A DNA stretch of 34,285 nt from Sulfurovum sp. 16-42-52 (GCA_002281755.1 NCHB01000021.1:1-34285); one strand, 5' to 3'; shown: positions 11,907 through 34,285, counted from the stretch's first letter. The notes: generated by a model not told the origin, from the letters alone. Numbers and translations are program-made.

Positions 11907-13413
11907 CCATGATGCCTACACGTATGGCTTCCTCGTAACTCGTTTGTCCTTCCAGGAGCATCTGTGTGAGTTTGTCTGCGATGGTGCTCATGCCGTTTTG
12001 TTTCATGTACTCGCGTACCTGATAGTCATTGAACCCATCTTTCATCATCTCTTTCACTTTGTCATTAATGATAAACAGTTCACCGATGGCCTGTCTGCCT
12101 TTGTAGCCTGTGAAATCACACAGCTTACAGCCCACAGCTTTAAAATAGATTTTGTCCGAAGGCACTCCTATCTCCTCCGCAATTACAGCGGCTAACCGTG
12201 TCTCTTCTTTGCAGTGCACACAGAGTTTACGTGCAAGCCTTTGTGCCAGTACACCCAGCAAGGTAGAAGAGATAAGAAAATTTTCAATCCCCATATCCAT
12301 CAAACGGCTCAGTGAAGAGGTCGCATCATTGGTATGCAGGGTTGAAAGCAAAAGGTGTCCCGTCAAAGCAGAACGAAGCGCGATATCAGCAGTTTCAGAG
12401 TCACGAATCTCTCCTACCATGATGATATCCGGGTCTTGTCTCAAGATGGAACGCAAGCCAGCAGCAAAGGTGAGTCCTACTTTGGTATTGACCTGAATTT
12501 GGGAGATATTGTCCGCATTGTACTCTACAGGGTCTTCTACGGTGATGATATTTTTATCAGGTGTTGCCACATGCTGCAAGCAGGCATGAAGGGTGGTTGA
12601 TTTTCCTGAACCCGTTGGTCCTGTTACCAAAATCATACCGTGGGCATGGTTGAGCAAGCGGTGAAGCTCTTTGCTTATCTCCTCAGCAAAACCCAAAGAC
12701 TCCAAAGTAGGGATGTGTTCTGTTTGGGACAAGATACGCATAACGATACGCTCACCATGATAGGTGGGTAGCACCGAAACCCTCACATCAATGCTTTTGC
12801 CCGATATAGAAAGCTGCGTACGTCCGTCCTGAGGCACACGTTTTTCTGAGATATCCAAACTTGAGATGACTTTGATACGGTTAATCACCAAAGCCACGAT
12901 GCTTCGCTCAAGATCAAGATGTTTTTTCAGTGCCCCGTCTATACGCAGGCGCACTTCACCTTTTTTTTCACCGCTTTCGATGTGAATATCACTCGCACCT
13001 TTTTGGATGGCCTGAAAAAACAAAGAATTGACCAGTTTAATTACCGGAGCAGACTCTTCGCTTGAGAGTAGATCCTGTGAATTGCGGATAAACTCCAACA
13101 GGTCGGACTCTACTTCTATAAATTCGCCCGAAGTGGTTGACATCTCTTCAAAATCAGTACTGGTCTGTATCTCTAAAAATTTATTTTTAAGTCTGGTGAA
13201 ACTCTCGGCATCCACCATGACAATAGGATAGTCTAAAGAGAGTTTTGCAAAATGGTTCAGAGCATCTGCTAGAGTCTCTTGCTGTACAATACAACTCTTG
13301 ACTCCTTCTAGTACCGTAAAAAGCAAGGCATGTTTGAGTGCTAACTTATGATTGATCTCCGCTTCCCATAAAGGCTCGAGATTGACATCTTGAAGTTGGG
13401 GGAAATGCATCAA
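11899..13413 (-). CDS. gspE: Type II secretion ATPase GspE
   Basis: 504 residues. This is the cytoplasmic motor that powers pseudopilus assembly. Visible parts are an N-terminal domain (1-130), the nucleotide-binding core with Walker A GPTGSGKST near 262-270, the Asp box near 290-300, Walker B with DIIMVGEIRDSETADIA, and the His box LLLSTLHTNDA. The zinc-binding tetracysteine domain is present as CVHC and CKLC, about residues 397-432. AGGAG lies about 6 nt before the ATG. It follows gspD by 12 nt and overlaps the J-like pseudopilin gene, so it is part of the minus-strand operon. Confidence 0.93.
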   Translation of the reverse strand: MMHFPQLQDVNLEPLWEAEINHKLALKHALLFTVLEGVKSCIVQQETLADALNHFAKLSLDYPIVMVDAESFTRLKNKFLEIQTSTDFEEMSTTSGEFIEVESDLLEFIRNSQDLLSSEESAPVIKLVNSLFFQAIQKGASDIHIESGEKKGEVRLRIDGALKKHLDLERSIVALVINRIKVISSLDISEKRVPQDGRTQLSISGKSIDVRVSVLPTYHGERIVMRILSQTEHIPTLESLGFAEEISKELHRLLNHAHGMILVTGPTGSGKSTTLHACLQHVATPDKNIITVEDPVEYNADNISQIQVNTKVGLTFAAGLRSILRQDPDIIMVGEIRDSETADIALRSALTGHLLLSTLHTNDATSSLSRLMDMGIENFLISSTLLGVLAQRLARKLCVHCKEETRLAAVIAEEIGVPSDKIYFKAVGCKLCDFTGYKGRQAIGELFIINDKVKEMMKDGFNDYQVREYMKQNGMSTIADKLTQMLLEGQTSYEEAIRVGIMDG

Positions 13414-13425
13414 AACTCCTATCGC

Positions 13426-15405
13426 TTAAAAATTTGTGCCAGAGGTAGCTCGGTTGATGCGGTTACTTGCAGGCGCAGAGCTGGTGGTGGTAGTGGAGTA
13501 AAAAGGCTTTTTGCGTTTTTCAAGTTCTTTAAAATACAAATCATTATACCGCTCCTGCACCTCTTCAAGTTCGGAGAGCATCTGCTTAAGTCTTTGCAAA
13601 TCATCACTTCTTCTTACGATATACGGCGTAAGATACACAACGACATTTTCTTCGATTTGTCTGTCAACCGTATGGGTAAAGAGCAATTCTCCCAATACAG
13701 GGATATCGCCTAAAACAGGTACGCTGGAGACACCTTTCCCTCCTGTTCTCTTGATAAGCCCTCCTAGGATAACCATCTCCCCATTGTTTACAATGACATC
13801 TGTTTTGACTGTTCTTTTGGTGGTGGTTGGTCTATCAGCTACCTGCTCCGAAGATGGGTCAATATCTTCCAAAATCGTTTCTATATTCATGGAAACTTTA
13901 TTGTTACTGGAAAGTCGTGGCTTGACCTTAAGTGTAAGCCCAATGTCTTCTCTGCTGTAGTTATTGACAACATTTGAGACACCTGTGGTGGATTGCTGCG
14001 CTGCTGTTAAAACAGATCTTACCTGCCCTACATAGATTTCTGCCTCTTTATTATTGGTACACAACACCGAAGGCTCACTCAAGAGATGTGCTGCACCGTT
14101 TTGCTGCAAGAGATCAAGTTTTGCGCCCAAAGCAAAGACCTTGTCAGTATCTTCAAATTTGAAGGCAGGATTGGTTGTTGTAATGGCATTCCCGTTATTG
14201 TCAAATTGCGTAGTGGTATTGTTTGTATTTAAAAAACCTAAGAGTGCGGGTGATATCTGCAGTGCCTGAGCACCCAAATTGCCTGACATCGTGTAAAGTC
14301 CACTAGAAGTAATAGCGCCTCCATCCAGTCCATACTTAAGCCCTATCTGTGCGGCAAGATTGGTGTTGATCTCAACAATTCTTGCTTTGACATAGACCTG
14401 AACCTTAGGGATGTCTATCTTCATGACTGTTTCTCTGATGTTTTTCATCTGCTCGGCTGTAGCAAGTATAACCAATGCATTGCGTTCTATGTCGGAGACC
14501 ACCATCGCTTTGCTTGGCGGCTTGCCTCCCTTAACTGGAGCTTTCACTTCCACATCATTCATCTGAGAGATGAGCTTGCTCATGATGATCTCCATCTCTT
14601 CGACATTGGAGTTTTTAAGATCAAGCACATACATTTTTTGTGTGGTACTTTCCCCTTTGGTGTCGAGCTGTTTGATGTAACTTATCATACGGCTGTTGTT
14701 CACGCTTTTACCCACAAGTATGAGAGAGTTGGTGGCTTCATCCTGAAACACATCCACCATTTCGCTCTCGATGGTTTGCGGGAAAATCTTTTTAGACATA
14801 TTTTGCACATTGGGAAAAACATCTTTGACCAGTGAGTTTTTCAGTTTTATCACGACTGATTTTTTGTCACCTGTTTTTTCTACGGCGTTGATGACTTTGG
14901 CTACAGAACGCAAAGTAGAGGGGTTTGCGGTAATCGCCAAGATGTTATTCTCTTTAAAAGAGATGATTTTGGCATTTTTGTGAAGCAAAGGCTGTATCTT
15001 GGCACGAAGGACTGCTGCGTTGGAGTTTTTGAGCGGGAACATCACGGTTTTCATCGTATCGCCGTCTATGGCGCTGCTGACATCCAGCCCCTCGCCCGCT
15101 GCATCAACTGATTTAACCACTTTGTAGTACTCCCCCTGATCAATTAGCGCAAGCCCTTTGCCCCCCAAAATAGAGTTTGCCAAAGCAAAAAGTGAACTTT
15201 TTTTGATGGGTGTGGTTGAGACAAAATTGATAGTACCTTTGGGTTCTTCTTCGATGAGGATGTTTTTTTGTGTGATTTTGGACACCATCTCGATAAAGTC
15301 TTTCACGCTGAGATTGCGAAAATTCACATCCACCGTCTCTTCTGCTGCATGCAGACCCATAGACAACACCAACACCAACGCGACTACTATTTTAGTTAAC
15401 TTCAT
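13426..15405 (-). CDS. gspD: Type II secretion secretin GspD
   Basis: 659 residues. Forms the outer-membrane channel. The signal peptide ends near residue 20 (GLHA|AEE). Next comes an N0 domain (about 25-95) and repeated N1-N3 KH-like domains (about 115-345), seen in segments such as FPLKNSNAAVLRAKIQPLL and YVLDLKNSNVEEMEIIMSKL. The secretin core covers about 370-610, ending with VPVLGDIPVLGELLF and VVVYLTPYIVRR. A Ser/Thr-rich, Ala-containing tail closes the protein, a region used by some secretins to bind a pilotin; no pilotin gene is seen here. The start overlaps gspC by 14 nt. Confidence 0.95.
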   Translation of the reverse strand: MKLTKIVVALVLVLSMGLHAAEETVDVNFRNLSVKDFIEMVSKITQKNILIEEEPKGTINFVSTTPIKKSSLFALANSILGGKGLALIDQGEYYKVVKSVDAAGEGLDVSSAIDGDTMKTVMFPLKNSNAAVLRAKIQPLLHKNAKIISFKENNILAITANPSTLRSVAKVINAVEKTGDKKSVVIKLKNSLVKDVFPNVQNMSKKIFPQTIESEMVDVFQDEATNSLILVGKSVNNSRMISYIKQLDTKGESTTQKMYVLDLKNSNVEEMEIIMSKLISQMNDVEVKAPVKGGKPPSKAMVVSDIERNALVILATAEQMKNIRETVMKIDIPKVQVYVKARIVEINTNLAAQIGLKYGLDGGAITSSGLYTMSGNLGAQALQISPALLGFLNTNNTTTQFDNNGNAITTTNPAFKFEDTDKVFALGAKLDLLQQNGAAHLLSEPSVLCTNNKEAEIYVGQVRSVLTAAQQSTTGVSNVVNNYSREDIGLTLKVKPRLSSNNKVSMNIETILEDIDPSSEQVADRPTTTKRTVKTDVIVNNGEMVILGGLIKRTGGKGVSSVPVLGDIPVLGELLFTHTVDRQIEENVVVYLTPYIVRRSDDLQRLKQMLSELEEVQERYNDLYFKELEKRKKPFYSTTTTSSAPASNRINRATSGTNF

Positions 15406-16225
15406 ATTCTAACTCCACTTCTTCTTTACCTCGTTCAACAACCAAAGAGAGATTATTGATATTGGTAATATTTTTATACACACCAAAGGCGGCATTGTAG
15501 CTGTCTATCTTTTCACCGTTGATGGACTTGATGACATCTCCCCTTCTTACACCCAGTTTCTCAAATGCAGAACCCTTTCGCACAAAAGAGATACGAAACC
15601 CCTCCAAAGCATTGCCTTTTTTGACCTCAACGATACCGATATTTTTATAAATATCATCCATATTTTTGGCATAATGGTCTATGAGTGTTTTATCGACGAT
15701 CTTATGATCGCCTGCATCCACCACCTCTCCCTCTGGTTCACTGGCTTTAGTTTGTTCCTGTGGTACTTGCTCATTGGGCATGATGCTAGAGCCGCCTGTG
15801 GTTTTTACAAGCAGGGGAACTCTGTACATCTTGGAGGCTTTGCTAAAGGTTGCATAGTCACGCCCTGCACCCTCAAGCACAAATCCGTTTATCTCTTCAC
15901 CTTTGGAAAGCACTTTGGTTTTACGCTGATGTTCTATGGTGACTACTGTGACATCAGATGCATTATAGATGGCTAAAAGGGTGATATCCTTGATGCTGCC
16001 TGCAACATTTTGGGGTTTTTGTCCCACTGCGGGGGCTGCTGCTTCATTGGGGCTAAGCTTGACCCTGTAGTACAGGGCTTTACCGCCTTTTTGCTCCGCA
16101 TAGTCATAACCGCTGGGGCTGAGCCATACCATCTCAACCAAAAACCACACCACCTTGATACAGAGCAGCACGACAAGCAAGCGCCACACCCGTGTGAGTA
16201 TCGCGGCATTAAAAAGATGTTTCAT
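15392..16225 (-). CDS. gspC: GspC-like inner-membrane protein with PDZ domain
   Basis: 277 residues from the ATG at 16225. A short cytoplasmic start is followed by one membrane helix (about residues 13-34), then a periplasmic HR-type domain (about 45-165) and a C-terminal PDZ domain (about 205-277) with GFRISFVRKGSAFEKLGV and GDVIKSINGEKI. GspC links the inner-membrane platform to the GspD secretin and takes part in substrate choice. A linker with Pro, Glu and Gln lies between the domains. An upstream in-frame extension exists but would run through the end of the preceding gene and lacks a membrane helix, so it was not used. It overlaps the neighbours on both sides. Confidence 0.88.
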   Translation of the reverse strand: MKHLFNAAILTRVWRLLVVLLCIKVVWFLVEMVWLSPSGYDYAEQKGGKALYYRVKLSPNEAAAPAVGQKPQNVAGSIKDITLLAIYNASDVTVVTIEHQRKTKVLSKGEEINGFVLEGAGRDYATFSKASKMYRVPLLVKTTGGSSIMPNEQVPQEQTKASEPEGEVVDAGDHKIVDKTLIDHYAKNMDDIYKNIGIVEVKKGNALEGFRISFVRKGSAFEKLGVRRGDVIKSINGEKIDSYNAAFGVYKNITNINNLSLVVERGKEEVELEYEVN

Positions 16226-16724
16226 AGACCCACCCTTTTTCACCTTTTTTAAGTTGCGAACCCAACATCGGCAAGGCTTTACTCTCATTAAAGTCAAGAT
16301 GCACCGTGCGATTGAGCACATCAGCCTGACCTGTTAAGCCCCCAAAAGAGCCTTGCGCCTCTATCTTTATCTGTGTTGGTGCTACAATAGAGTGCGAAAA
16401 AATCGCCTCTTGTGTCTCTTGGGGCACCATCTGCTTCAAAGAGTCATCCACATGCAGGGTATCTAGTTTTAGGCGTGTATAAAACAGCAGTGTAATGATA
16501 TCTATCTCTTTGATGGTTGCCACCTTGATGCCCTTGACATAAACAGAGACCTGCTCCAAGGTAAGCCCAAACATCCCCTCGCTGATCTTCTTTTCGTTCA
16601 GGACTATCTCTTGTTTTGCCAAAGCCTCTTCAAGGGTATAGTAAAGCTCCTGCTTAGGCATAAACCCAAGGATGCCCAACCACACCAGTAGCAACACCAG
16701 CAAAACATTTTTTACCATTTGCAT
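16209..16724 (-). CDS. GspN-like T2SS protein
   Basis: 171 residues. There is a single hydrophobic N-terminal segment (about 4-22), then a soluble, probably periplasmic domain with alternating beta-like stretches (FGLTLEQVSVYVKGIKVATI, IKIEAQGSFGGLTGQADVLN). That pattern and the position between gspM-like and gspC genes match the poorly characterised GspN family. The start overlaps the previous gene by 13 nt; a second ATG two codons later is an alternative. Without a profile search, N is the best guess from context. Confidence 0.6.
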   Translation of the reverse strand: MQMVKNVLLVLLLVWLGILGFMPKQELYYTLEEALAKQEIVLNEKKISEGMFGLTLEQVSVYVKGIKVATIKEIDIITLLFYTRLKLDTLHVDDSLKQMVPQETQEAIFSHSIVAPTQIKIEAQGSFGGLTGQADVLNRTVHLDFNESKALPMLGSQLKKGEKGWVYETSF

Positions 16725-17113
16725 TGGAACTCCAAATCATACGTTGTGCCTTTGTTGTCAATGACAAGTTTTTTAATCTCAACCGGCAGTGTCATGATCT
16801 TTGAAGTAACGGCATTGAGTTCTCTTGAGGTTAATCCACTGTACGATGCAGTAACATTCTTGTTTTTACTGCTCCATGTTAGCTTGGATGGAGGAACTAG
16901 GCTTTGCAGTTTGGTCACATTTTGGGCAATCTTTTTATCGGCCCATATCTTTTGAAGGGCGATGACCTCTTTGAGTTCCTGCACCGTTTTTTTTGTGCCA
17001 AAGAGCATCTCCTGCTGCGAAGATAGCTGTACATTTTTATAGATAAAAGAGAAAGCCATCAAAAGAAATGCCGCCAAAACAATCCATTCATTCTGGTATC
17101 GCTTGGCTATCAT
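16712..17113 (-). CDS. GspM-like T2SS protein
   Basis: 133 residues. One membrane helix (about residues 10-27) follows a short basic start. A charged helical stretch comes next, then a small C-terminal alpha/beta domain (LTSRELNAVTSKIMTLPVE..IDNKGTTYDLEFQCKW). This is the layout of GspM, which binds GspL in the inner-membrane platform. The ATG overlaps the gspL stop in an ATGA arrangement. Call based on layout and operon position; primary sequence of GspM is weakly conserved. Confidence 0.65.
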   Translation of the reverse strand: MIAKRYQNEWIVLAAFLLMAFSFIYKNVQLSSQQEMLFGTKKTVQELKEVIALQKIWADKKIAQNVTKLQSLVPPSKLTWSSKNKNVTASYSGLTSRELNAVTSKIMTLPVEIKKLVIDNKGTTYDLEFQCKW

Positions 17114-18039
17114 AATGACCCCTCTATCTTCAGATCATTACTGCCTGTAAATGCTGACGTTTTATAACTGTATTTTTGTGCCAAGGTTTTCAGACGATTG
17201 GCTATCTCTGCATCTTTACACGAAAAACGGGCTTCAAAGCCTTTTTCTTCCATCTTCAAAGAAAGCAGTGTTACCCCTTTAAAAATCATCTCTGAGAGGT
17301 TTTTGATGCTGTCTCTTTTTTTGCGCTCTGTACTATCAATCGTTTCAAATTTGCTCATAATGCTTTCTCTGGCATAAGAGCTTTGCAAAGAAGAGTGGGA
17401 GGCAAGCAAGGTTTGCAGCTCTTCGTCTGCACCGCCATCACCCCCGTAGCGCAAGCCCTCCACAAAAAACATCATCGCAAACAAAAGCAATACAGAAGCG
17501 AACATCACCGTTTGTTTTAGTGATAAGATAGACCCGTACGACCCCTGTACTACCACACCTTTTTTAGGTGTAAAGACTTTATCAACCACAAGGGGTGCAA
17601 CCTCATCGTTTAATGCAGACCGCGGGACGATGGTCGCTATCCCCTCTAACGTAACCAGCGCTTCAGTGTCGGACAAAAACACAGGTTTGCTCAAATATTC
17701 CACTGCCTGCTGGGCAAAAAAGAGTTTGGAGACCAGCTCCAAGTCCATCCCTTGGCTTTGTAAAAAATTCATAATCATCTCTAAATCATACGCCAGAAAA
17801 ACCCAAGCGTCTGCTTCTTTGTACACCATATAGTCATACTGTCGGCTGGTATCAAGCAAACCATCAAACAATGAATGTGCGATGCGTTTTGCCTGATAGG
17901 CATACTTTATGGGCAAAATTTCTTTTTTGAGCGTATAAAACCTCGGTGTGAGCATCACATTGACGGCTTCAGTGGCGAGGGGCTTCTTGATCTCTTTATG
18001 AATCAGTATCAGCTCTTTATTGTTTCCCGTAAAATTCAA
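17110..18039 (-). CDS. GspL-like T2SS protein
   Basis: About 309 residues from a TTG at 18039, which has GGGAGAGG 9 nt upstream. The cytoplasmic N-terminal two thirds would be the actin-like domain that binds GspE. A membrane helix lies about 165 residues before the C-terminus (TVMFASVLLLFAMMFFVEGL). The periplasmic end shows a ferredoxin-like pattern (MEEKGFEARFSCKDAEIANRL). The reading frame stays open further upstream across the end of gspK, with ATGs at 18096 and 18216. The start is therefore uncertain; the upstream part looks like a shadow of gspK. Context (K-L-M order) supports GspL. Confidence 0.65.
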   Translation of the reverse strand: MNFTGNNKELILIHKEIKKPLATEAVNVMLTPRFYTLKKEILPIKYAYQAKRIAHSLFDGLLDTSRQYDYMVYKEADAWVFLAYDLEMIMNFLQSQGMDLELVSKLFFAQQAVEYLSKPVFLSDTEALVTLEGIATIVPRSALNDEVAPLVVDKVFTPKKGVVVQGSYGSILSLKQTVMFASVLLLFAMMFFVEGLRYGGDGGADEELQTLLASHSSLQSSYARESIMSKFETIDSTERKKRDSIKNLSEMIFKGVTLLSLKMEEKGFEARFSCKDAEIANRLKTLAQKYSYKTSAFTGSNDLKIEGSL

Positions 18040-18931
18040 AATATTTTGCCTCTCCCTGAATATACTCAAACCCAAACCGATACTGCTCTTTTGCATAACG
18101 GTAGGAGACAGAACATTGTGTCTCATCCATAAATGCCGTATCTGCCAACACATTTTTCCACTCTGCGTAGTCTCCGCCGTTTTGCTGTACAAAATCCTGT
18201 AAGGAAGGTCTGTCAAGCTCTAGTGAGTTTACCCATTCACCTGTCAAAAAAACATCCATTCCAAATAAAAAAGCGATCAATTCAGCGGAACTATATTCCG
18301 CATCGATTTTATCTGCATGGGAAGAAAAGGTAAAATACTTTTCCCAAGGCACCAGCCCTGTATTTTCATCATCACTTTCAAACTGATAGCGCATCAAAAG
18401 TGTTTCAAATTGTTGATAAGACATAATACCTTTTTTTTGGTGAAGTCTTCTTTGCGAAATTGTTATCAAATTGTAATCATCTGACATCTCTTCTTGCATG
18501 ATTTCAAGCAGTCTGGTGGGGTCTTGCAGTTCATACTCTTGTGCGATAAAATCAAAAAGATTTTGTGCAACCGTGTACTGTGATTGGCTTTGTGTATCTT
18601 GCGATAAACCGAGCCAATTGATATTGACCCCTCTGTTCAGGGCTTTGCACTCAAGCACCATTGCAAATTTTTCATCCGGATCCTGGATGGGCAAGGCGGT
18701 GCGGTAGAGAAAGGAAAAGAGTGTTTTTCTGTCTTCTATACTTCCAAAAATGGCAACAATATCGGCATAATAGACATCGGCTTGAATCAGCGCTTTTGTC
18801 GAACTCGCCTCATCTTGTGCCTCTTTAAAATAACCCAAAAGCACCGCAGTAAGTGCGATAATCACCGCCAGAACAGACAAGGTAATCATCAGCGCAAACC
18901 CTTGTCTCTTCTTTGTACCGATACTAAGCAT
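18017..18931 (-). CDS. gspK: GspK-like minor pseudopilin
   Basis: 304 residues from the ATG at 18931. A TTG 33 nt upstream is an alternative start, giving 315 residues. The prepilin-type leader is MLSIGTKKRQG|FALMITLS, and the mature +5 position is Ile, not Glu. Lack of Glu5 and the large size are known traits of GspK, the pseudopilus tip protein. The globular domain includes the helix-rich insert expected of the family (DPTRLLEIMQEE, DFIAQEYELQD). It heads the minus T2SS arm, downstream of a -10 box at 18998-18993. Confidence 0.8.
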   Translation of the reverse strand: MLSIGTKKRQGFALMITLSVLAVIIALTAVLLGYFKEAQDEASSTKALIQADVYYADIVAIFGSIEDRKTLFSFLYRTALPIQDPDEKFAMVLECKALNRGVNINWLGLSQDTQSQSQYTVAQNLFDFIAQEYELQDPTRLLEIMQEEMSDDYNLITISQRRLHQKKGIMSYQQFETLLMRYQFESDDENTGLVPWEKYFTFSSHADKIDAEYSSAELIAFLFGMDVFLTGEWVNSLELDRPSLQDFVQQNGGDYAEWKNVLADTAFMDETQCSVSYRYAKEQYRFGFEYIQGEAKYFEFYGKQ

Positions 18932-18992
18932 GTTTGGTTTTATCCATCTAAAAGCTCTATTCAAGTAAAATCTTTAAAATTAAAATCCAAAT

Positions 18993-18998
18993 ATTATA
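18993..18998 (-). promoter_or_regulatory. -10 box for the minus T2SS arm
   Basis: TATAAT on the minus strand, preceded by TTGGG, the same extended form as in the secG/methyltransferase repeat. It lies 24 nt before the gspG ATG on the other strand, so the two T2SS arms share this short region. I see no clear -35 box. Confidence 0.5.
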
Positions 18999-19021
18999 CC
19001 CAAGCAAACCAAAGGATAGAC

Positions 19022-19453
19022 ATGACACGCAACACTCCACTTAGAGCCGGCTTTTCACTGATTGAACTTCTCATTGTTATTGTTATTCTTGGCGGACTGG
19101 TTGCTGTTGTAGCGCCTGGTTTGATGGATGCTGCAGATGGGGCGAAGAGGGACACGGTCTGTCTTAAAATGAACGACTTGAAAAAAAGATTTGACATGTT
19201 CAGTCTGGATAATGGTACATACCCCGACACGGAAGAGGGTTTTGAAGCGCTTCTAAGCAACCCTGATGCAGACAAATATCCGAACTACCGTGAGAAACCG
19301 TACTTAAAAGAACTTCCTAAAGACTCATGGAAAACCCCTTTTATTTATATCAAAAAAGGCAGCGATATCGAGCTTATCTCTTATGGTGCCGACAGAAAAG
19401 AGGGAGGTGAAGAGAGCAACAAAGATATCTTGTTTAGCGAATGTTCAAAATAA
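19022..19453 (+). CDS. gspG: Major pseudopilin GspG
   Basis: 143 residues. The prepilin leader is MTRNTPLRAG|FSLIE15 with the canonical Gly at -1 and Glu at +5, followed by a 20-residue hydrophobic helix. The C-terminal half carries the GspG hallmarks: TYPDTEEGFEALL, YLKELPKDSWKTPFIY, and a calcium-loop-like end (ISYGADRKEGGEESNKDI). GspG is the main subunit of the pseudopilus. AAAGGA is at 19011-19016. An upstream in-frame extension overlaps gspK on the other strand and lacks pilin features. First gene of the plus T2SS arm. Confidence 0.95.
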   Translation: MTRNTPLRAGFSLIELLIVIVILGGLVAVVAPGLMDAADGAKRDTVCLKMNDLKKRFDMFSLDNGTYPDTEEGFEALLSNPDADKYPNYREKPYLKELPKDSWKTPFIYIKKGSDIELISYGADRKEGGEESNKDILFSECSK

Positions 19454-19462
19454 GATCTTTGT

Positions 19463-20011
19463 ATGTCTTCCAAAAAGAGATACGCGAGTACACAAGGCTT
19501 TTCTTTACTAGAACTGCTTATCGTGATACTTATCGTCTCTATCGTTTATTTTTTGGGTTTTGATGGCTTCGAGATAGGCAAACCAAAACCCAAAGCACTT
19601 ACTCCACTGACGCTCAAATCAACCATCACCACTTCAGATTTTTTCCCGGGACAAGGCACGTTTATGTGTATTGAAAAGTGTCGTTCTTGCTATTTTAGAT
19701 CCGACATATCCTCAGCGTTTGAATCTTACCCCAATGCAGTCAATTTGGGAGAGCTTGAAGTCTATACTTTAGATGCGCAAGATGCACTGGTGGAACTTGA
19801 GTATGGTCGCTATCAGGATGAAAAAATTTGTCTCTTGATGGACTTTTATCCCAATGGCAGTTCAACACAGCTGATACTCAAAGACAAAACAAGTAGCTAT
19901 TTTCTGCCTGCTTATTTCGACGAGCCCCAACGTTTTGCTTCCATCGAAGAGGCAAAAGACTTTTGGCTAAGAAACACCACGCTTGTCTCCGACAACGGAG
20001 CCTTTTATTGA
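19463..20011 (+). CDS. GspH-like minor pseudopilin with Cys cluster
   Basis: 182 residues. Prepilin leader with G12|F13-S-L-L-E17 and a hydrophobic helix to about residue 33. The following domain does not match a pilin I know closely. It contains C69-x3-C73-x2-C76 and another Cys later (KICLLMDF). Four Cys in a small exported domain suggest disulfides or metal binding. It sits 9 nt after gspG and overlaps the next pseudopilin by 3-4 nt. GspH is inferred from order and size only. Confidence 0.65.
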   Translation: MSSKKRYASTQGFSLLELLIVILIVSIVYFLGFDGFEIGKPKPKALTPLTLKSTITTSDFFPGQGTFMCIEKCRSCYFRSDISSAFESYPNAVNLGELEVYTLDAQDALVELEYGRYQDEKICLLMDFYPNGSSTQLILKDKTSSYFLPAYFDEPQRFASIEEAKDFWLRNTTLVSDNGAFY

Positions 20012-20421
20012 AAGCATTTCGTCCTGCTTTTACGATTATAGAGATACTCGTATCGGTGATCATCATCTCTTTTGCCATACTCTTCGTACTCAAAATACAC
20101 AGTGAAAATCACGAGCAAATCGTCTATATCACGCAAAGAAACACGCTCGCTTTTCAAGACTCACTCTATCTTGACAAAGAGAGTCTGCGGTACCATAAAG
20201 ACCATAAAACTGCTTATGATGTATTGGAAAAAACCTTTAAAATCACCGAACAAGAAAGCAGAGAAATCCTCAAACAACACAGCAGCGATATCTTTACGCC
20301 CGAAGAGATAGAGATTTTACCCCCTGCGGGGCAACCTGGTCCCAGCACCATCGTCAATGAAGTGATGCTTAAAGGCAAACAATCCTCTATCTACAGCCAT
20401 TTTAGACTAGAGCCATTTTAG
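20008..20421 (+). CDS. GspI-like minor pseudopilin
   Basis: 137 residues from a TTG start at 20008 that overlaps the preceding stop (TTGA). ACGGAG lies 7 nt upstream. This start gives a compact prepilin leader MKAFRPA|FTIIE12, with Ala at -1 and Glu at +5. A longer in-frame ATG start would put 15 odd residues before it. The hydrophobic helix is followed by a charged helical domain without cysteines. Short size and place in the arm suggest GspI; identity among H/I/J is not certain. Confidence 0.65.
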   Translation: MKAFRPAFTIIEILVSVIIISFAILFVLKIHSENHEQIVYITQRNTLAFQDSLYLDKESLRYHKDHKTAYDVLEKTFKITEQESREILKQHSSDIFTPEEIEILPPAGQPGPSTIVNEVMLKGKQSSIYSHFRLEPF

Positions 20422-20470
20422 ACTGGATCTTTTTAGCCCATGCTTCCAAACAAGATACAGTTAAACAAGT

Positions 20471-20476
20471 TATAAT
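20471..20476 (+). promoter_or_regulatory. Candidate internal -10 box for gspF
   Basis: TATAAT in the 87-nt gap between the I-like pseudopilin and gspF, the only sizeable gap in the plus arm. No clear -35 box. AAGGA (20493-20497) follows as the gspF ribosome binding site. Confidence 0.4.
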
Positions 20477-20508
20477 ACTCCCAATAGACGGTAAGGACAA
20501 GAAAACGC

Positions 20509-21723
20509 ATGCTTTTTAAGTATAAAGGGTTTGACAAAACAGGTAAAAAAGTCAAAGGCACCGTTACGGCAAGTTCACCAGAAGAGGCAGGTCAAAAACT
20601 CCGAAACAGCGGTATCTATCATGAAGGACTTACTGCATCCAAAGAGTTCTCCTTGGATGCTTTTTCTAAACGTCAAATGCCTACAGACCTTCTCAGTACC
20701 TTCTCTAAAGAACTCTCTTCGTATCTAAACTCTGGCATGACCATCCTCACAGCCATTAAACTCCTTGAAAACCAGCATGAGGGTGAAAAACGCTATGTCG
20801 CTTTTCTCAACTCCATCAAAACCATGATCGATGAAGGAAAATCACTTTTCAATGCACTCAATGCGCAAAAAGTCTATGCAATGCCGGACTTTTTCCTTCA
20901 AAGCCTCAATGTAGCCGGACAAAGCGGCAAGATGGTAGAAGTACTGACCAATATGGGAAACTTTTTCTCAGCCCAAAACAAAATCAAAAAACAGGTCAAA
21001 GGTGCTATGACCTACCCAGCCATTATCTTTATCGTAGCCATTGGGATGACCTCTTTTTTGATTGCTTTTGTGGTACCCAAGATCACAGAGATATTTGAAG
21101 ACACGGGACAGGCACTGCCTCCTATTACGCAGTTTGTACTTGCTTTGAGTGATTTTTTGACCTCACACTATATCGCCATTATTGTCACCCTTGTGCTTTT
21201 CATCCTTGCTTTTAAGCTCTCTTATGCAAAACTGGAGGGTTTTCATCGTATCATAGACTCGCTCTTACTCAAAATGCCTGTACTGGGTACACTCATCCAA
21301 AATCACGAACTGGGAAGATTTTCCTACATTCTCTCTTTGATGCTCAGCTCAGGCGTAGCGTATGCACAGGCTGTGGGACTTGCCAAAGCAACCTTCAGCA
21401 ACTACGGACTGCGCGCGCTTTTTGAAAAAGCGTCAGTCAAAGTGCTTGAGGGTAACAAACTCTCAAACGCTTTGCAAATGACAAAAGGCGTCAAGCTCAA
21501 ACGCAATTTTATGCAGTCTTTAGCGCTAGGTGAAGAGTCCAGCGAAGTCGCTCAGATTTTGAACAACACATCCACGCTGTATGCTGAAGAAAATGAAGAT
21601 AAACTCAAATTGCTGCTTAGTCTGCTAGAACCTTTTATGATGCTTTTTATCGGTACAGTGGTCGGAGTCATCGTCTCAGCCATGCTGCTTCCTATCTTTA
21701 CCATGACGCAAGGTCTTCAGTAA
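20509..21723 (+). CDS. gspF: Type II secretion platform protein GspF
   Basis: 404 residues, standard for GspF/PilC-type proteins. An N-terminal beta-rich start (FKYKGFDKTGKKVKGTVTAS) is followed by two repeated cytoplasmic helical bundles (about 65-190 and 265-385). Three membrane helices are visible, near 165-190, 215-240 and 370-395. Motifs include LSSYLNSGMTILTAIKLLE, QVKGAMTYPAIIFIVAIGMT and the matching second-repeat LSLMLSSGVAYAQAVGLAKA. GspF anchors the pseudopilus motor in the inner membrane. Its stop overlaps the ATG of the RDD gene. Confidence 0.93.
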   Translation: MLFKYKGFDKTGKKVKGTVTASSPEEAGQKLRNSGIYHEGLTASKEFSLDAFSKRQMPTDLLSTFSKELSSYLNSGMTILTAIKLLENQHEGEKRYVAFLNSIKTMIDEGKSLFNALNAQKVYAMPDFFLQSLNVAGQSGKMVEVLTNMGNFFSAQNKIKKQVKGAMTYPAIIFIVAIGMTSFLIAFVVPKITEIFEDTGQALPPITQFVLALSDFLTSHYIAIIVTLVLFILAFKLSYAKLEGFHRIIDSLLLKMPVLGTLIQNHELGRFSYILSLMLSSGVAYAQAVGLAKATFSNYGLRALFEKASVKVLEGNKLSNALQMTKGVKLKRNFMQSLALGEESSEVAQILNNTSTLYAEENEDKLKLLLSLLEPFMMLFIGTVVGVIVSAMLLPIFTMTQGLQ

Positions 21724-27676: not shown

Positions 27677-28726
27677 TTACAATCCTAAAAATTCAAAAGG
27701 TTTAGCCTCAATGAACTTACCCGATGTATCACCCGAGAAAATATTTTTCTGCTCTTTGCCCAGAGGAAGTGTTTTGGCTGATTTAAGTGTTTCAAAGTTG
27801 ATCTTCTTCATATCTACCCAAAAAACGGTCGGTGTGAGTGCTGATTCAAAATAATAAATCTTATTTTTTTGATCTGCAACCGTTCTCCATCTGGTTGATG
27901 AAATGTTGGGCTGTCCGGGTGTGCTGATGCCGTAAGGAACAGAGACATTACGAATCACACTGAAGACACTCGCTGTTGCCACACGTTCATTTTCAGATTT
28001 AGGAATAGCATTGATGTAAAATGACGCACGTACAAAGCGGTCGGCTGCACGGTTTGTTCCGGGGAGCATCACTGTACCGCCTATCTCTTTCCAGTACTCA
28101 CCCAGTGCCAACTGCTTGTCAAAGATGGGGGAGTTCGTCATCGTTTGATACTTTTTATCGTGGTGAATCACCAGTTTGCCGCCGATATACTCAAATATGG
28201 CACTATCTCCAGAGCTGTCGGAGATAGAAAGATGCAGGTTTGCCATCTTGCCCTTCATCCCCGGTACCTGATCGCTGACGACAACAAATTTCTCTTGTCT
28301 GAGTTCGTCCACCGCTTCTTTTACCGTAGCAAAATTATCAAGCACATATTGTGTCCAAGCAGAGATGGTAAGACCGGGCTCTTGTCCTTTCCATGGCGTG
28401 TACTCTGATTCTGCGAGCCACAAGAGATTGGCACTGAGTCCTTTTTCATTCATCCCATCTGTGGTGGCTATCTCATACCCCGAAGCGATGACACTGCCGT
28501 ACTTTGATTTCCATTTCACGGACATTTCTCCGACCTTACCGTCTCGCTCTAACCCCCGAGGGAATATCCACAAATTGGTCTCGATATCAACAGTCCAATC
28601 CATAGACCTCGCAGTCAAAACAGTATCATTTACTCCATGGTACACAACCCTTGTACATGCTTCACTGGGCGTCATCCCACCCACAACCATAGCCATCATC
28701 CCCAAAGCCATACTCTTTTTCAACAT
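27677..28726 (-). CDS. Exported choloylglycine hydrolase family (Ntn) amidase
   Basis: 349 residues. The signal peptide ends SEA|C24, so signal peptidase cleavage would itself expose the catalytic N-terminal Cys. Offset by 22 from bile salt hydrolase numbering, R40 and D43 (TARSMDW) fit Arg18 and Asp21. The Asn in MTNSP (residue about 198) fits Asn175, and the Arg in NRAADRFVRA is near the Arg228 position. Family members cleave linear amides: conjugated bile salts, penicillin V, and in Gram-negative relatives N-acyl homoserine lactones. The substrate here is unknown, and bile salts are unlikely for a free-living bacterium. Probably periplasmic or secreted. AGGAG precedes the ATG. Confidence 0.87.
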   Translation of the reverse strand: MLKKSMALGMMAMVVGGMTPSEACTRVVYHGVNDTVLTARSMDWTVDIETNLWIFPRGLERDGKVGEMSVKWKSKYGSVIASGYEIATTDGMNEKGLSANLLWLAESEYTPWKGQEPGLTISAWTQYVLDNFATVKEAVDELRQEKFVVVSDQVPGMKGKMANLHLSISDSSGDSAIFEYIGGKLVIHHDKKYQTMTNSPIFDKQLALGEYWKEIGGTVMLPGTNRAADRFVRASFYINAIPKSENERVATASVFSVIRNVSVPYGISTPGQPNISSTRWRTVADQKNKIYYFESALTPTVFWVDMKKINFETLKSAKTLPLGKEQKNIFSGDTSGKFIEAKPFEFLGL

Positions 28727-28815: not shown

Positions 28816-30504
28816 TTAGCGTGCATACTCCACTACTTCAACCTCTGTAGGTGATGCGGGTTTTACCTCTTGATGTACTTCTTCAAGAGGAGTGACATGC
28901 GCATCGCGTCCTTTGCTGAAACTTTGTTCTTGCACGATGACCCTATAGGCTTTGTTCAGCATCCTTGCACGTGCGTCTGAAGGCACGATGAGATGTGAGA
29001 TATCGCCGTGAAGTCTGGCTACCTCATCAGATTTCAAAGAACCGTTTGCATCAAAAAACTTTTCTATCACTTCGGTATTGGCACGAAATTCATCACCCGC
29101 ATGGTTTTGCTCAAGATAGAGGGTGTATTCATCTCTTCCATCAGCTGTTTTAGGTTCGGGTATGTCTGTAAACCCTTTAATCTCCTGACTCCAGTGGTAC
29201 CACCCTTGCAAAGTTGTATTGGCATCAAATTTTCTGGCAAAAGCAAAGGTCGTGTCAGTCGTAGCACCGATACCCCCGTGACACCCCATGCAGTAGAGTG
29301 TCTCCTCGTGGTTTTGCGGACGCAGCGCGCCACTGGCATCTTCGATAAAACCCTGATAGACCCAGCCCGTTCCTGTCACAAGACCTTTTTCGCTATCGCC
29401 TGCTATACTGCGCAGTCTATCGGGAAATGCTGCTTTCTCTTTTGCTTCGGCATCTACGGCATTGAAGAGTTGCCCGTAATGATTCCAGTGTGTCTTTTTG
29501 GCATAACGCACCTCTTTGATGCGCGGAGTCATCAAGAGTCTACCTTTGTCATCCATGCCGAGGTAGCGTACCGTATGCAAAAACTCTGTGCCTTTGGGGT
29601 AAAGACCAGGAGCGATGAAGTAGGTATTGGCAGAGAGTTTCTCTTTGGCAAGCCCCACATAACTCATCGAAAAATCACTCAGCTTTTGCGTCTTGCTATC
29701 ATAACGGGGTTTTACCCATAGATATACGATTTTGCTTGCTTTGCCCAAGATGCCGTTTTTGTCAAGGTCAAGGCCGTATTTTTGTTCATCCACAGGCTCT
29801 ATCGTGATGTCTTTTTGTTTGATCATCGCCTCTACGATACTAAGATTGAGTGTGTACACCTCCAGATCAAACACACCTTTTTCATCTTTGGCAAAATCCT
29901 CATGCAAACGGATTAACACATCGTCCGTACTGCCGTTTGTGGGCCAAAATGTTCCCAAAAACGGATAATATGCAAAAGCTCTCCAGCGCGTATACGCTCC
30001 ATTTGGTGCTTTGTCAAACCCATGCGCATCAAAGTCAAAATAACAATCAGGCACATAGCCACCCCAACTTCCATCACCGTTGACATCCCAGGAAGCAGGT
30101 AAATGTTTGAGTTTTTCAGCTAAAAGAAGTGTGTTGTTCTTACGGTAGTTATCTTCTGCGATATAGGCATCTATGGTCGCATCATCTATGGCTGCCACTG
30201 CTTTGCTTCTGTCTTTAAAAAGATTGGTAAAGCGGTTTGTTTTGGTATAGTCACTCAGAGGATAAAGAGCCTGAAGGGCAGCATCATCGACATAGTTTGG
30301 CTCTTTCGAGTTGATATGGCATGAAAAGCATGGGTTGTGTATGACACCATGGGCATCTTTTGTTTTGGTATAACACTGGCTGGGTATATACGCCGCCTGA
30401 TTATGCTTCGCAAACATGCTTTTGAACTCTACACTCTCTTCTTTGGCACAAACGAGCGAGACCGCAACCCCACACAACAACACAACAGACTTCACTCTAT
30501 ACAC
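28816..30504 (-). CDS. Exported diheme c-type cytochrome, family not recognised
   Basis: 562 residues from a GTG start with AAGGA 5 nt upstream. The signal peptide ends near residue 20 (SLVCA|KEE). There are two heme c attachment motifs far apart: C59-F-S-C-H63 and C405-M-G-C-H409. Two calcium-loop-like stretches occur between them (DVNGDGSWGG near 120 and DLDKNGILG near 240). The region around the first heme (NPCFSCHINSKEPNYVDD) and the long spacer are not like small electron-transfer cytochromes; an enzyme or surface redox protein is possible. Met or His axial ligands cannot be fixed by eye. It lies directly downstream of the PhoX-like lipoprotein gene on the same strand, joined by a hairpin-bearing gap. 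Confidence 0.75.
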   Translation of the reverse strand: MYRVKSVVLLCGVAVSLVCAKEESVEFKSMFAKHNQAAYIPSQCYTKTKDAHGVIHNPCFSCHINSKEPNYVDDAALQALYPLSDYTKTNRFTNLFKDRSKAVAAIDDATIDAYIAEDNYRKNNTLLLAEKLKHLPASWDVNGDGSWGGYVPDCYFDFDAHGFDKAPNGAYTRWRAFAYYPFLGTFWPTNGSTDDVLIRLHEDFAKDEKGVFDLEVYTLNLSIVEAMIKQKDITIEPVDEQKYGLDLDKNGILGKASKIVYLWVKPRYDSKTQKLSDFSMSYVGLAKEKLSANTYFIAPGLYPKGTEFLHTVRYLGMDDKGRLLMTPRIKEVRYAKKTHWNHYGQLFNAVDAEAKEKAAFPDRLRSIAGDSEKGLVTGTGWVYQGFIEDASGALRPQNHEETLYCMGCHGGIGATTDTTFAFARKFDANTTLQGWYHWSQEIKGFTDIPEPKTADGRDEYTLYLEQNHAGDEFRANTEVIEKFFDANGSLKSDEVARLHGDISHLIVPSDARARMLNKAYRVIVQEQSFSKGRDAHVTPLEEVHQEVKPASPTEVEVVEYAR

Positions 30505-30593: not shown

Positions 30594-33500
30594 TTATTTG
30601 ATTTCATATACAACAGTCGAACCGCTCACTTCATAAGAGACCACCAAAAGGTTTTTGCCGTTTGGCGAAGAAGATGCCGGTATAAAGACCATACCCTCAG
30701 GACTAACATCATTTTGCTCATGTGTCACCACATAGTTGACAAACTGTGCATCATACGGATTGGTGATATCGTAAATCACTATCGCACTTTGTCTCTCAAG
30801 TCCGACAAAGGCATACGTCTTGCCGTCAATCGTTCCAATCGTCAATGCTTCAGGTTCTGCACCTTTGTTACCGCTTCTGCCATCTATATCCCCTTCATCT
30901 TGGTTAAAGAGTCTTGGTTCATAACTTGCAACTTTTTTTGAAATGCTGTCACCGCTATCCCATATCAGTTTTCCGTTCGCATCCCAGATAGAAAAACTTC
31001 TACCGCCAAAAGTATAGAGTTTTTCATATACTTTACTGTCTGGTGCTGTTTCACCCATATCAATCATCACTTTAAGATCATTGTCATACAGATAATCATT
31101 GGCAATACTTCCATCAAGGGTCAATTCAGAGATTTTTTCATCATCCGTCCACACTTTCCCTTTTTTGAGTGTATCTGATACTTTCGCAACCGGATACTCT
31201 CTACCGTCACCCTCATTTGCTGTTACCAAATACGTTGAACCGCCAAATGTATAGCTTGAGATACTGTCAGGCATATAAAGTGCTTTAAGTCCTTTATAAT
31301 TGTTGAGTCTAATCAGACCGTCTTCTTGAATATCAATTTTATTTTCACTCTCATAGTCTTTTGAACCCAATGAGCGCACAAATGTCAATGTATTATGTAT
31401 CAAGTCCACTTTTGCAATAGCATTGTTCTCCTGAAGCGTCACATACGCATAGTTACCTTTTACGGTGATGTATTCAGGCTCGATATCGAGTGTTTGGTCA
31501 TTGCTTGGTGTTCCACCCAGTCTTACAGGTGTTGTATCCGAAGCTGGATCAGGTGTCACAGTAGAGAAGTTAATATCTGCATAAGAGCCGTCTACTACAG
31601 TAATCACTCCCACAGACCCTGCTACATCTACATAGTCACCTGCTCCATTAGTTGTTACTTTTTTACTAGCATCGGTTATATAAACACCTGTTGTTGCACC
31701 AATAGGTTCACCTTCATTGGCAACCACGATTTTAGAGCCGTCTTGGTTAAAGGTTACCATATCCGGAAGGTAACCGACTTCTACATTATAAATCTCTTTA
31801 TAGTTATCACTGGTGTTCAATACAACCACACGCCCTTTGGTTGTCACTTTGTCTGCACTACCCACTGCAATGGCAAGTTTACCGTTTTTCACTGCAACGC
31901 TTTGCACGCTTGTGCCATAGCTTGAAAGGTCTATAGATGTAAGCACTTTGGGTGCTTGCACATCTTTCATATCAACCACATCTACTTTATTTGTTGCGCC
32001 GTTTGTGATGAAGAGTTTTTTCTGCGTTGCATCATACGCAGAGATTTCGCTTCCTGCCTCAGTATGGGTGTTGTAGCTTCCGAGTTTGATTAGTTTTTTT
32101 GCTTTCAGCGTCTCTACGTTTTTGATTGCGCCCATTACCCCGATGGAAGATTGACCCAACTCTTCAGATGTGGTGCTTGGGTGTTGTGTCACGGCAGTCA
32201 TATACGCCCAGCCATTGACATTTTCATACCAAAACGGTGACGTTGTCTCAGCACCTTTTGGTGTTGCAAACACTCTTGAGAGTGAACCATTGGTAATGTC
32301 AAGTGCCCAAATCATGTTATTCAGGTGGCGACCTGTATCTTCTCCGATGAAAAGAAGGTTTGAACCATCCATATAGGTCACGTTATCTGGTTCAGAGATG
32401 TTATTGACATCACAAGTATTTTTTGGGTTAAAGTATGGACTCTCAGCTGTGTAAGTTGTTGGTGCACCACCGATAATACCGTACATATTGTTTACAACAT
32501 ACGCACTTTTGATATCAGTACCATTTGTATCCGTTTGTGCTTCTGTCGATACATCAAGCGCATACACTGTACCACAAGCATTTTTAGGCACTCTGATATC
32601 GTTATGACCTCCTGTATCGTTAGAGCCATTATCTAGCATTCCTTTATCAACTACACTCATGGCTACAAAAAGTCTGTTATGGTCTTTACTGAAGGTAATC
32701 CCTTCTTCTTTGTTGAACTCAGTAGTTGCCCCCAACATTGCTGCATAGCGTCTTGGCTCAAGAAAGGCTGCTGCTTTTTCTTGTCCTGAAACAACTTTCA
32801 GACACTCATGCCCTGCACTGGTATTGATGGAAGTAAACCCATCATTACACGTACCAGCACTTGGCGCTACATCAGTGTCAAAAATATCGCTAAACTTCAA
32901 ACCATCTGGCGTTTCTACATCATTATCACCATCAACCATGGCACGAATCTCTGCATTGTTCGCGCTTCCCAGTTTGATCCAGCTCAGTTCAGCTTTACCG
33001 CCGTTTACATCTGATATTTGGTTCCATTTAGCCGCATACAGTGTACCTTCGCTCAAATCCTCAGCTTTATCCGCAACAAACATAAACAGACCCACGTTTG
33101 TACCGTCATCAGACATATAGACAGTTTTTCTGTCCGGCATCACATACGCCAACTCATGCGCCATACGACCCATTGCGTAGTGTTTAGCATACTGTGCTGC
33201 ACCTGTCGCATCAATTTTAACCTCAGGTGTCCAGCCATAGTAATACGGGCTTACTTTAGATAAATCACTACCCCAATACTTGAGTGTACCGTTTAAGAGA
33301 TTGTAGTTTCCGTAGTCTTTTGGTACAAGTGAAGTGTTGTTCTCGTAGGCTTCAAACGCTCTTGCATCAGGCTCATACTCTTCACTTCCCAAGTGAGATT
33401 CCCAAGGCGTTCTTTGTCCCGCGCAGTGTACAAAACCGCCAAACTCGGCTTTTTGAGAGATGAACGTGAGTGAATCTGACTTCACACTGAGTGCACCAGT

Positions 33501-34100
33501 TTGTGTGTTTTGCTCAAGTTTTGCCATATACATTGCACCGATACCACACTCAAATTGGCTTACTAGATACAACTCATTGTTTTTTTGTAAAATAGAAGAG
33601 TAATCAAGCCCCGATCCCACACCACCCAAAGAGCTGTTTGTTCCATTACACAGGTAAGGTGTTCCGTCAGTCAGTGCGATAGGAGTATCCGTGTAATCTT
33701 TGACCTGACCAAAAATTTCACTATTGTCTATATCTCCAGTAGCCAAAAGTTTTGTAAAAGCAATTTCCTGTGTTTCATCTCCAAAGGTGACCATCTCTGA
33801 AGACTGTATGGCATTTTGCGCATCACCAAGCGGGGTTTCAATTGGGTCAAATTGTATCTTCGATGCTTTTGTACCTACAGAGATAGTCAAATCTTCACCA
33901 TCAATCCCATCAGTACCGTTCGTTCCACTGATTCCGCTTGCACCCTCACTACCATTTGTCCCATCGATACCGGCTATACCATTGGTACCATTTACGCCAT
34001 CCACACCATTGATTCCGTCTATGCCGTCTGTACCATCAGTACATCCAGACATTCCCAGTACCAAAACCGCACTCGCTGCTATGCTTATCCATTGTTTCAT
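30594..34100 (-). CDS. Large lipoprotein: collagen-like repeat + PhoX-like + choice-of-anchor-I-like domains
   Basis: 1168 residues. The lipoprotein signal peptide has Cys20 in GMSGC. Residues 23-70 are sixteen uninterrupted G-X-Y triplets. About 75-660 resembles the PhoX/DUF839 phosphatase family (TPWESHLGSEEYEPDAR, MGRMAHELAYVMPD, SEGTLYAAKW). About 665-1165 resembles the choice-of-anchor-I domain, a beta-propeller-like fold (SEISAYDATQKKLFI, PEYITVKGNYAYVTLQENNA, EGDGREYP, DGRSGNKGAEPEALTIG). PhoX enzymes are calcium-dependent phosphatases, so a surface-anchored phosphatase is plausible, but catalytic residues were not verified. PhoX proteins usually carry a Tat signal; this one has no twin arginine. 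AAGG lies 9 nt before the ATG. Confidence 0.8.
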   Translation of the reverse strand: MKQWISIAASAVLVLGMSGCTDGTDGIDGINGVDGVNGTNGIAGIDGTNGSEGASGISGTNGTDGIDGEDLTISVGTKASKIQFDPIETPLGDAQNAIQSSEMVTFGDETQEIAFTKLLATGDIDNSEIFGQVKDYTDTPIALTDGTPYLCNGTNSSLGGVGSGLDYSSILQKNNELYLVSQFECGIGAMYMAKLEQNTQTGALSVKSDSLTFISQKAEFGGFVHCAGQRTPWESHLGSEEYEPDARAFEAYENNTSLVPKDYGNYNLLNGTLKYWGSDLSKVSPYYYGWTPEVKIDATGAAQYAKHYAMGRMAHELAYVMPDRKTVYMSDDGTNVGLFMFVADKAEDLSEGTLYAAKWNQISDVNGGKAELSWIKLGSANNAEIRAMVDGDNDVETPDGLKFSDIFDTDVAPSAGTCNDGFTSINTSAGHECLKVVSGQEKAAAFLEPRRYAAMLGATTEFNKEEGITFSKDHNRLFVAMSVVDKGMLDNGSNDTGGHNDIRVPKNACGTVYALDVSTEAQTDTNGTDIKSAYVVNNMYGIIGGAPTTYTAESPYFNPKNTCDVNNISEPDNVTYMDGSNLLFIGEDTGRHLNNMIWALDITNGSLSRVFATPKGAETTSPFWYENVNGWAYMTAVTQHPSTTSEELGQSSIGVMGAIKNVETLKAKKLIKLGSYNTHTEAGSEISAYDATQKKLFITNGATNKVDVVDMKDVQAPKVLTSIDLSSYGTSVQSVAVKNGKLAIAVGSADKVTTKGRVVVLNTSDNYKEIYNVEVGYLPDMVTFNQDGSKIVVANEGEPIGATTGVYITDASKKVTTNGAGDYVDVAGSVGVITVVDGSYADINFSTVTPDPASDTTPVRLGGTPSNDQTLDIEPEYITVKGNYAYVTLQENNAIAKVDLIHNTLTFVRSLGSKDYESENKIDIQEDGLIRLNNYKGLKALYMPDSISSYTFGGSTYLVTANEGDGREYPVAKVSDTLKKGKVWTDDEKISELTLDGSIANDYLYDNDLKVMIDMGETAPDSKVYEKLYTFGGRSFSIWDANGKLIWDSGDSISKKVASYEPRLFNQDEGDIDGRSGNKGAEPEALTIGTIDGKTYAFVGLERQSAIVIYDITNPYDAQFVNYVVTHEQNDVSPEGMVFIPASSSPNGKNLLVVSYEVSGSTVVYEIK
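33891..34034 (-). repeat. Collagen-like G-X-Y coding repeat
   Basis: Sixteen triplets starting with Gly, mostly followed by Thr, Ile or Val and then Asp or Asn, with one each ending in Ala and Glu and two in Ser. The DNA repeats with a 9-bp period, so replication slippage could change its length. No proline is present, unlike vertebrate collagen. Confidence 0.8.
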
Positions 34101-34285
34101 GTCATTGCCTTATTTTTTAGGTGCAAAAGCATAGAAAAAATGTATAACAAAATGACCTCAGGATGATTACAAAAGTGTTATATTTATTTGAGCCACTTGC
34201 AGATTAGTAAAAAAGAGGGGTTATTAAGGGTTAAAACGAAGAAAAAAAGCTGATTCTGATTTCAAAAAGTTATAATTTTTTACCA
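34101..34285. other. AT-rich upstream region at the window end
   Basis: Non-coding as far as visible. It should contain the promoter of the large lipoprotein gene. A weak candidate is TTGTAA followed, about 19 nt later, by TTATAC on the minus strand. Nothing else was recognised. Confidence 0.3.

Follow-up and report, generated by a model that had tools for sequence, protein, structure and literature searches.

PhoX is a phosphatase found widely in nutrient-poor waters. In Campylobacter jejuni, the PhoX protein Cj0145 is a Tat-exported, Ca-dependent alkaline phosphatase (PMC4148689). The Fe3+ of PhoX has a cysteine ligand, and Tat export has been speculated to allow both PhoX and PhoD to be loaded with iron in the cytoplasm (PMC4223295). 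Lipoprotein forms of PhoX have been published as well: Fjoh_2478 of Flavobacterium johnsoniae is predicted to reside at the outer membrane and is induced by phosphate depletion (PMC8115612). Psip1 of marine picocyanobacteria is reported to be without overall sequence identity to PhoX, and in some cyanobacteria it is fused to phytase-like domains (PMC11098088).

We analyzed a 34,285-nucleotide stretch of DNA from Sulfurovum sp. 16-42-52 (GCA_002281755.1, NCHB01000021.1:1-34285), referred to here as the window. A single open reading frame on its minus strand, 30594..34100, encodes a protein of 1168 amino acids, counted from the ATG, in which a lipobox signal is followed by a Gly-X-Y stalk, a PhoX module and a choice-of-anchor I (CAI) module. 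The features of this gene are as follows.

34101..34200, minus strand: upstream region, alignable with that of a PhoX-less relative in genome G078 (DNA alignment)
34041..34100, minus strand: Sec/lipoprotein signal peptide, residues 1-20, with an MSGC lipobox, a predicted lipidated Cys20 and Thr at +2 (sequence; LSGC at the matching place in G078)
33891..34034, minus strand: collagen-like spacer of 16 Gly-X-Y triplets, residues 23-70, proline-free (PF01391, 28.0 bits; exact count)
32112..33875, minus strand: PhoX module, residues ~76-663 (PF05787, stand-alone homologues, 3zwu; missing from the 77% identical relative L041)
30597..32096, minus strand: CAI module, residues 669-1168, a predicted seven-bladed propeller in which many Asp/Glu are conserved (PF22494, NF038117, structure, conservation)

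The original prediction, made from the DNA alone, had placed these three parts in one lipoprotein, and the exact coordinates and domain scores bear this out, both the PhoX and the choice-of-anchor I profiles being matched above their curated cut-offs. The Pfam matches were choice_anch_I (PF22494) at residues 673-1167 (264.5 bits, cut-off 32), PhoX (PF05787) at residues 219-599 (69.3 bits, cut-off 24) and Collagen (PF01391) at residues 23-68, the last barely over its cut-off (28.0 bits against 27.2); the CAI part also matched NCBIfam NF038117 (433.9 bits, cut-off 300). The PF05787 score is modest, and the PhoX module is larger than its Pfam match, as homology with stand-alone PhoX proteins spans residues ~77-663. 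The predicted stalk of 16 triplets was found uninterrupted and with zero proline, behind Cys20 of the lipobox, a motif that is the predicted surface-anchoring signal of this CAI protein. PADLOC gave no match.

An AlphaFold2 model built on a 42-sequence alignment had a mean pLDDT of 85.6, with the signal and stalk (residues 1-78) below 50. The best Foldseek match of the PhoX part was P. fluorescens PhoX (3zwu, E 2e-19). Residues ~665-1168 fitted seven-bladed propellers (VIA-align Z 31-32 over ~290 residues, mostly at 2.2-3 Å), matches that are generic and without functional meaning. How the two propellers are oriented to each other is uncertain in the model (pTM 0.66). The model is consistent with the two-propeller, phosphatase-type design that had been proposed, and the sequence alignments indicate that the PhoX metal site is retained in it.

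The structure 3zwu was matched by profile at E 3e-92, and seven tested positions (Cys179, Glu193, Glu194, Glu273, Asp292, Glu387 and Asp479) were retained in the window protein and in all 30 of 30 aligned homologues. We take these positions to be the metal/phosphate site, partly from the 3zwu structure. For the other part, this assignment draws on PMC11098088 and PMC4223295; a literature search found no paper naming the PhoX ligand residues that were sought. Numbering follows 3zwu chain positions in a phmmer alignment and agrees with the naming of D292 and R385 in PMC11098088. The corresponding codons, read from alignments, are these.

33423..33425, minus strand: Cys226, P. fluorescens PhoX Cys179, the thiolate position
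33378..33383, minus strand: Glu240-Glu241, P. fluorescens PhoX Glu193-Glu194
33153..33155, minus strand: Glu316, P. fluorescens PhoX Glu273
33105..33107, minus strand: Asp332, P. fluorescens PhoX Asp292
32709..32711, minus strand: Lys464, where P. fluorescens PhoX has Arg385 (Lys is the rule in this lineage)
32703..32705, minus strand: Glu466, P. fluorescens PhoX Glu387
32385..32387, minus strand: Asp572, P. fluorescens PhoX Asp479

Thus, the window protein has the propeller fold and the seven positions in common with P. fluorescens PhoX (3zwu/4alf, PF05787), but differs from it in having Lys for Arg385, a Sec lipoprotein signal rather than Tat export, and an additional stalk and CAI head. Because Arg385 is replaced, the kinetics or substrate of the window PhoX may differ. 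The same Arg-to-Lys change has been reported for Psip1 (PMC11098088). Compared with Fjoh_2478, both proteins are lipoprotein forms of PhoX, but no CAI head or collagen-like stalk is described for the Flavobacterium protein (PMC8115612).

Classical Tat-exported PhoX has a twin-arginine signal and Arg385; the window protein has Lys464, and no twin-arginine motif was found in its N-terminus, which instead carries a Sec lipoprotein signal. Typing of 43 PhoX ORFs by motif gave 36 with Lys, 6 with Arg and one untyped. A Tat motif was present in only one of the 36 Lys-type ORFs (that of Azospirillum), and in five of the six Arg-type ORFs, the sixth of which starts at a contig end. The predicted lack of a twin-arginine signal, and hence Sec export, was therefore confirmed, but it is the rule for the Lys-type lineage rather than a property of the fusion. 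Cj0145 and six similar proteins (L105-L110) share the Pfam family of the window PhoX; unlike it, the six have Arg at position 385, a Tat motif wherever the N-terminus is complete, and no diheme neighbour.

Lipidation of Cys20 is supported by the lipobox and the Sec-type signal, and since Thr occupies the +2 position, the protein is probably sorted to the outer membrane. The window also contains type II secretion genes.

11899-21723: T2SS genes for GspE, the GspD secretin, a PDZ (GspC-like) protein and GspF

That the window protein leaves the cell by this system, as had been suggested, is a guess.

We next asked how widespread this architecture is, by searching 175 genomes of the family and 397 genomes sampled across the phylum, two sets that overlap. 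No second protein with collagen, PhoX and CAI was found in either set. In the 175 family genomes PhoX is otherwise without CAI behind it, mostly as a separate protein of ~600 aa; CAI either forms a protein of its own or is fused to other domains. In the phylum sample, PhoX followed by CAI was present in five genomes of f6, another family of the order (L045-L049; 1239-1292 aa). These proteins resemble the window protein in that PhoX is followed directly by CAI, with 56-59% identity over both domains; they differ in their N-terminal region, which has no collagen-like stalk, and their CAI comes from a different branch. No plasmid record covered 80% of the query. The pairing of PhoX with CAI is thus rare but recurrent. 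The original prediction was that the two domains usually occur separately; the full triple is unique in the genomes searched, but PhoX-CAI is not, and collagen-CAI and collagen-PhoX each occur alone elsewhere. An example of the latter is found in Pseudoalteromonas (L118 and L119), which shares lipobox, collagen-like repeat, PhoX and diheme neighbour with the window but lacks CAI, its PhoX being only 30-32% identical.

The closest relative of the window CAI is L041 in G078, a 567-aa lipobox-collagen-CAI protein without a PhoX module. Its CAI is 77% identical and its first 37 residues are 70% identical to those of the window protein; the signal peptide, stalk and upstream DNA are alignable, and its lipobox is a canonical LSGC in place of MSGC. 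Relative to L041, the window PhoX is flanked by '...GEDLT' and '...LIKLGSY', and it ends where stand-alone PhoX proteins have their C-termini. Because this PhoX-less relative shares upstream DNA and signal peptide with the window gene, PhoX was probably inserted into an older gene for a collagen-CAI lipoprotein. In the CAI tree the window and G078 form a clade (support 100/100) surrounded by many PhoX-less CAI proteins, which argues for insertion in the window lineage rather than loss in G078. A shared genome position was considered but not supported: in G078 the gene follows def, but the source genome has its own def on contig C24, with unrelated sequence downstream. The last residues of this def gene (L122) differ from those of G078's and run into the unrelated sequence near the contig end.

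The CAI tree rejects a single clade of the window CAI and the f6 fusions, even with G078 included (AU p 8e-5 and 6e-7), and PhoX and CAI were therefore probably joined at least twice, independently. When the whole f6 PhoX group was included in the PhoX tree, the window PhoX adjoined this group with a support of only 62/24, and two f6 proteins with other fusions fell inside the group; at this support the tree fits a shared and a separate origin of the PhoX halves alike.

The gene start lies 185 bases from the contig end in a draft assembly of 66 contigs, and two neighbouring genes might have been joined by the assembly. We consider such a chimera highly improbable, since each of the two joints keeps the reading frame, falls at a natural domain end and lies inside one contig, and PhoX-CAI fusions are present in five other genomes. 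Moreover, neither a second PhoX nor a second CAI copy was found in the source genome.

The partners of CAI and PhoX bear on what the second head may do. CAI is fused to a 5'-nucleotidase in L038, L039 and L074, to a phytase-like domain in L040, L058 and L073, and to PhoX in the window, in L045 and L046 (by Pfam) and in L047-L049 (by BLAST); in L085 a lone CAI gene is followed by a PhoD gene, and in L009, L025 and L063 CAI stands alone as a lipoprotein. PhoX is likewise fused to a nucleotidase (L068) and to a phytase-like domain (L050). A 1444-aa PhoX-PKD-endo/exonuclease-phosphatase protein (L042 1003-5337, G092) is adjoined by a CAI gene, a 2021-aa protein on a Skermanella rosea plasmid (L124 880-6945) combines a nucleotidase C-domain with CAI, Exo_endo_phos and RTX repeats, and in Paracoccus a phytase-like domain is found in one protein with a partial CAI match. 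Since CAI and PhoX recur fused to phosphoesterase domains, a role in phosphorus scavenging is the economical reading. In G477 (L068 4618-12668), the PhoX-nucleotidase (1353 aa) and a PhoX-CAI protein (1292 aa) are encoded side by side, with a diheme gene a few kb away; in G541 (L073 3659-12442), diheme, PhoX, phytase-like-CAI and nucleotidase genes adjoin, possibly as a phosphate-scavenging island; and Acinetobacter baumannii plasmid p7E072658, a small mobilizable plasmid, encodes a CAI protein (L123 3875-5725).

It is quite possible, although we say so tentatively, that the CAI head is also a phosphatase, one of the atypical-PhoA type, which would make the window protein a two-headed enzyme with differing ester specificities. 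Its combination with several phosphoesterases and its occurrence alone as a lipoprotein are consistent with this idea, as are its 27 nearly invariant charged residues and its many invariant Asp/Glu, including EPE and PD motifs; a proline-aspartate Ca-binding motif is common to atypical PhoA and PhoX (PMC4548154). In addition, PF22494 matches the genome of Synechococcus elongatus, from which an atypical alkaline phosphatase has been described (Ray 1991, as cited in PMC11098088), but the match is at genome level and is not assigned to a particular protein such as PhoA. Binding propellers carry conserved acidic residues too, and our literature search found no characterized CAI enzyme and no solved, characterized relative of CAI. 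The many different catalytic partners would also suit an accessory module, and CAI may instead be a non-catalytic propeller that binds or presents substrate or mineral, directing phosphatases towards polymers, nucleic acids or calcium minerals. MSP130, which we presume may be a relative of CAI, would fit such a role. MSP130 is a skeletal protein that has been reported from bacteria as well (PMC4536745); no paper on MSP130 with gene transfer and phosphatase was found in the literature search. In contrast, CAI is also found alone, which an adaptor would not need.

Beside the domains, metal-site residues, anchor motif, PhoX-less relative and recurrent CAI-phosphoesterase fusions, all established computationally, we set a reading that we consider likely: the window protein is a Sec-exported, lipid-anchored extracytoplasmic phosphatase that scavenges organic phosphate with two propeller heads, and it arose by insertion of PhoX into a collagen-CAI gene. 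The lipid on Cys20 would anchor the protein, most likely in the outer membrane, and the short Gly-X-Y spacer would hold the PhoX propeller away from the anchor, where it would be exposed at the surface and may hydrolyze phosphomonoesters at an Fe3+/Ca2+ cluster. The seven-bladed CAI propeller would be a second head related to phosphate esters, acting by hydrolysis or by binding substrate or mineral. The PhoX module would have entered the older gene at natural ends, with the upstream region and signal peptide kept.

The gene next to that of the window protein is one that recurs beside PhoX genes of this lineage.

28816..30504, minus strand: 562-aa protein with two CxxCH motifs whose C-terminal part is P460-like (profile, alignment, Foldseek)

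Both CxxCH motifs were invariant in 13 aligned diheme proteins. The protein scored 26.8 bits against PF16694 (cytochrome P460; cut-off 27), 12 of 13 relatives matching at E<=0.01; its best Foldseek matches were P460/cytochrome c'-beta proteins, weak at E>=0.07, and a search by sequence found no PDB relative. A gene for a choloylglycine-hydrolase-family (CBAH) protein (27677-28726, minus strand) lies between the diheme gene and YifB. In the phylum sample, a diheme gene was present within 5 kb (<=5 kb) at 54 of 63 PhoX loci of the window PhoX's lineage, and 55 of 59 diheme matches adjoined PhoX. The pair also occurs in the Gammaproteobacteria Hydrogenovibrio, Thiomicrorhabdus and Pseudoalteromonas; in the plasmid records of Priestia, Azospirillum and Thiodictyon the diheme gene was not beside PhoX, nor was it at any of the six Arg-type (Tat-type) loci read. 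The association between Tat motif and diheme gene gave a Fisher p of 0.002 on 43 ORFs, which is only indicative because relatedness was ignored.

One interpretation, which we offer as a speculation and regard as rather unlikely, is that PhoX proteins of the Lys-type, Sec-exported lineage need the diheme protein encoded next to them, for example for loading or oxidation of the iron site outside the cytoplasm, the window protein being the most elaborate, two-headed form. This hypothesis is drawn from the contrast between Sec and Tat export and the speculation in PMC4223295; if true, the diheme helper would take the place of the Tat export and cytoplasmic metal insertion that classical PhoX is proposed to use. 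The frequency of the pair, its presence in some Gammaproteobacteria and the invariant CxxCH motifs would agree with a redox reaction carried out by both proteins, in which the PhoX fold would have a main role other than that of a phosphatase. We consider this improbable: all tested PhoX metal-site positions are retained and the fusion partners are phosphoesterases, both of which favour a phosphatase.

Because related bacteria shuffle the CAI propeller onto several phosphate-releasing enzymes, the window protein, read as a phosphate-scavenging phosphatase, is an uncommon new domain combination in a modular phosphate-scavenging toolkit and not a new kind of machine. The repeated attachment of the uncharacterized choice-of-anchor I domain to phosphate-releasing enzymes gives this family a testable role. 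The most interesting lead is the PhoX-diheme pair, which, found at sampled Sec-type but not Tat-type loci, raises the question of how a Sec-exported PhoX is supplied with iron.
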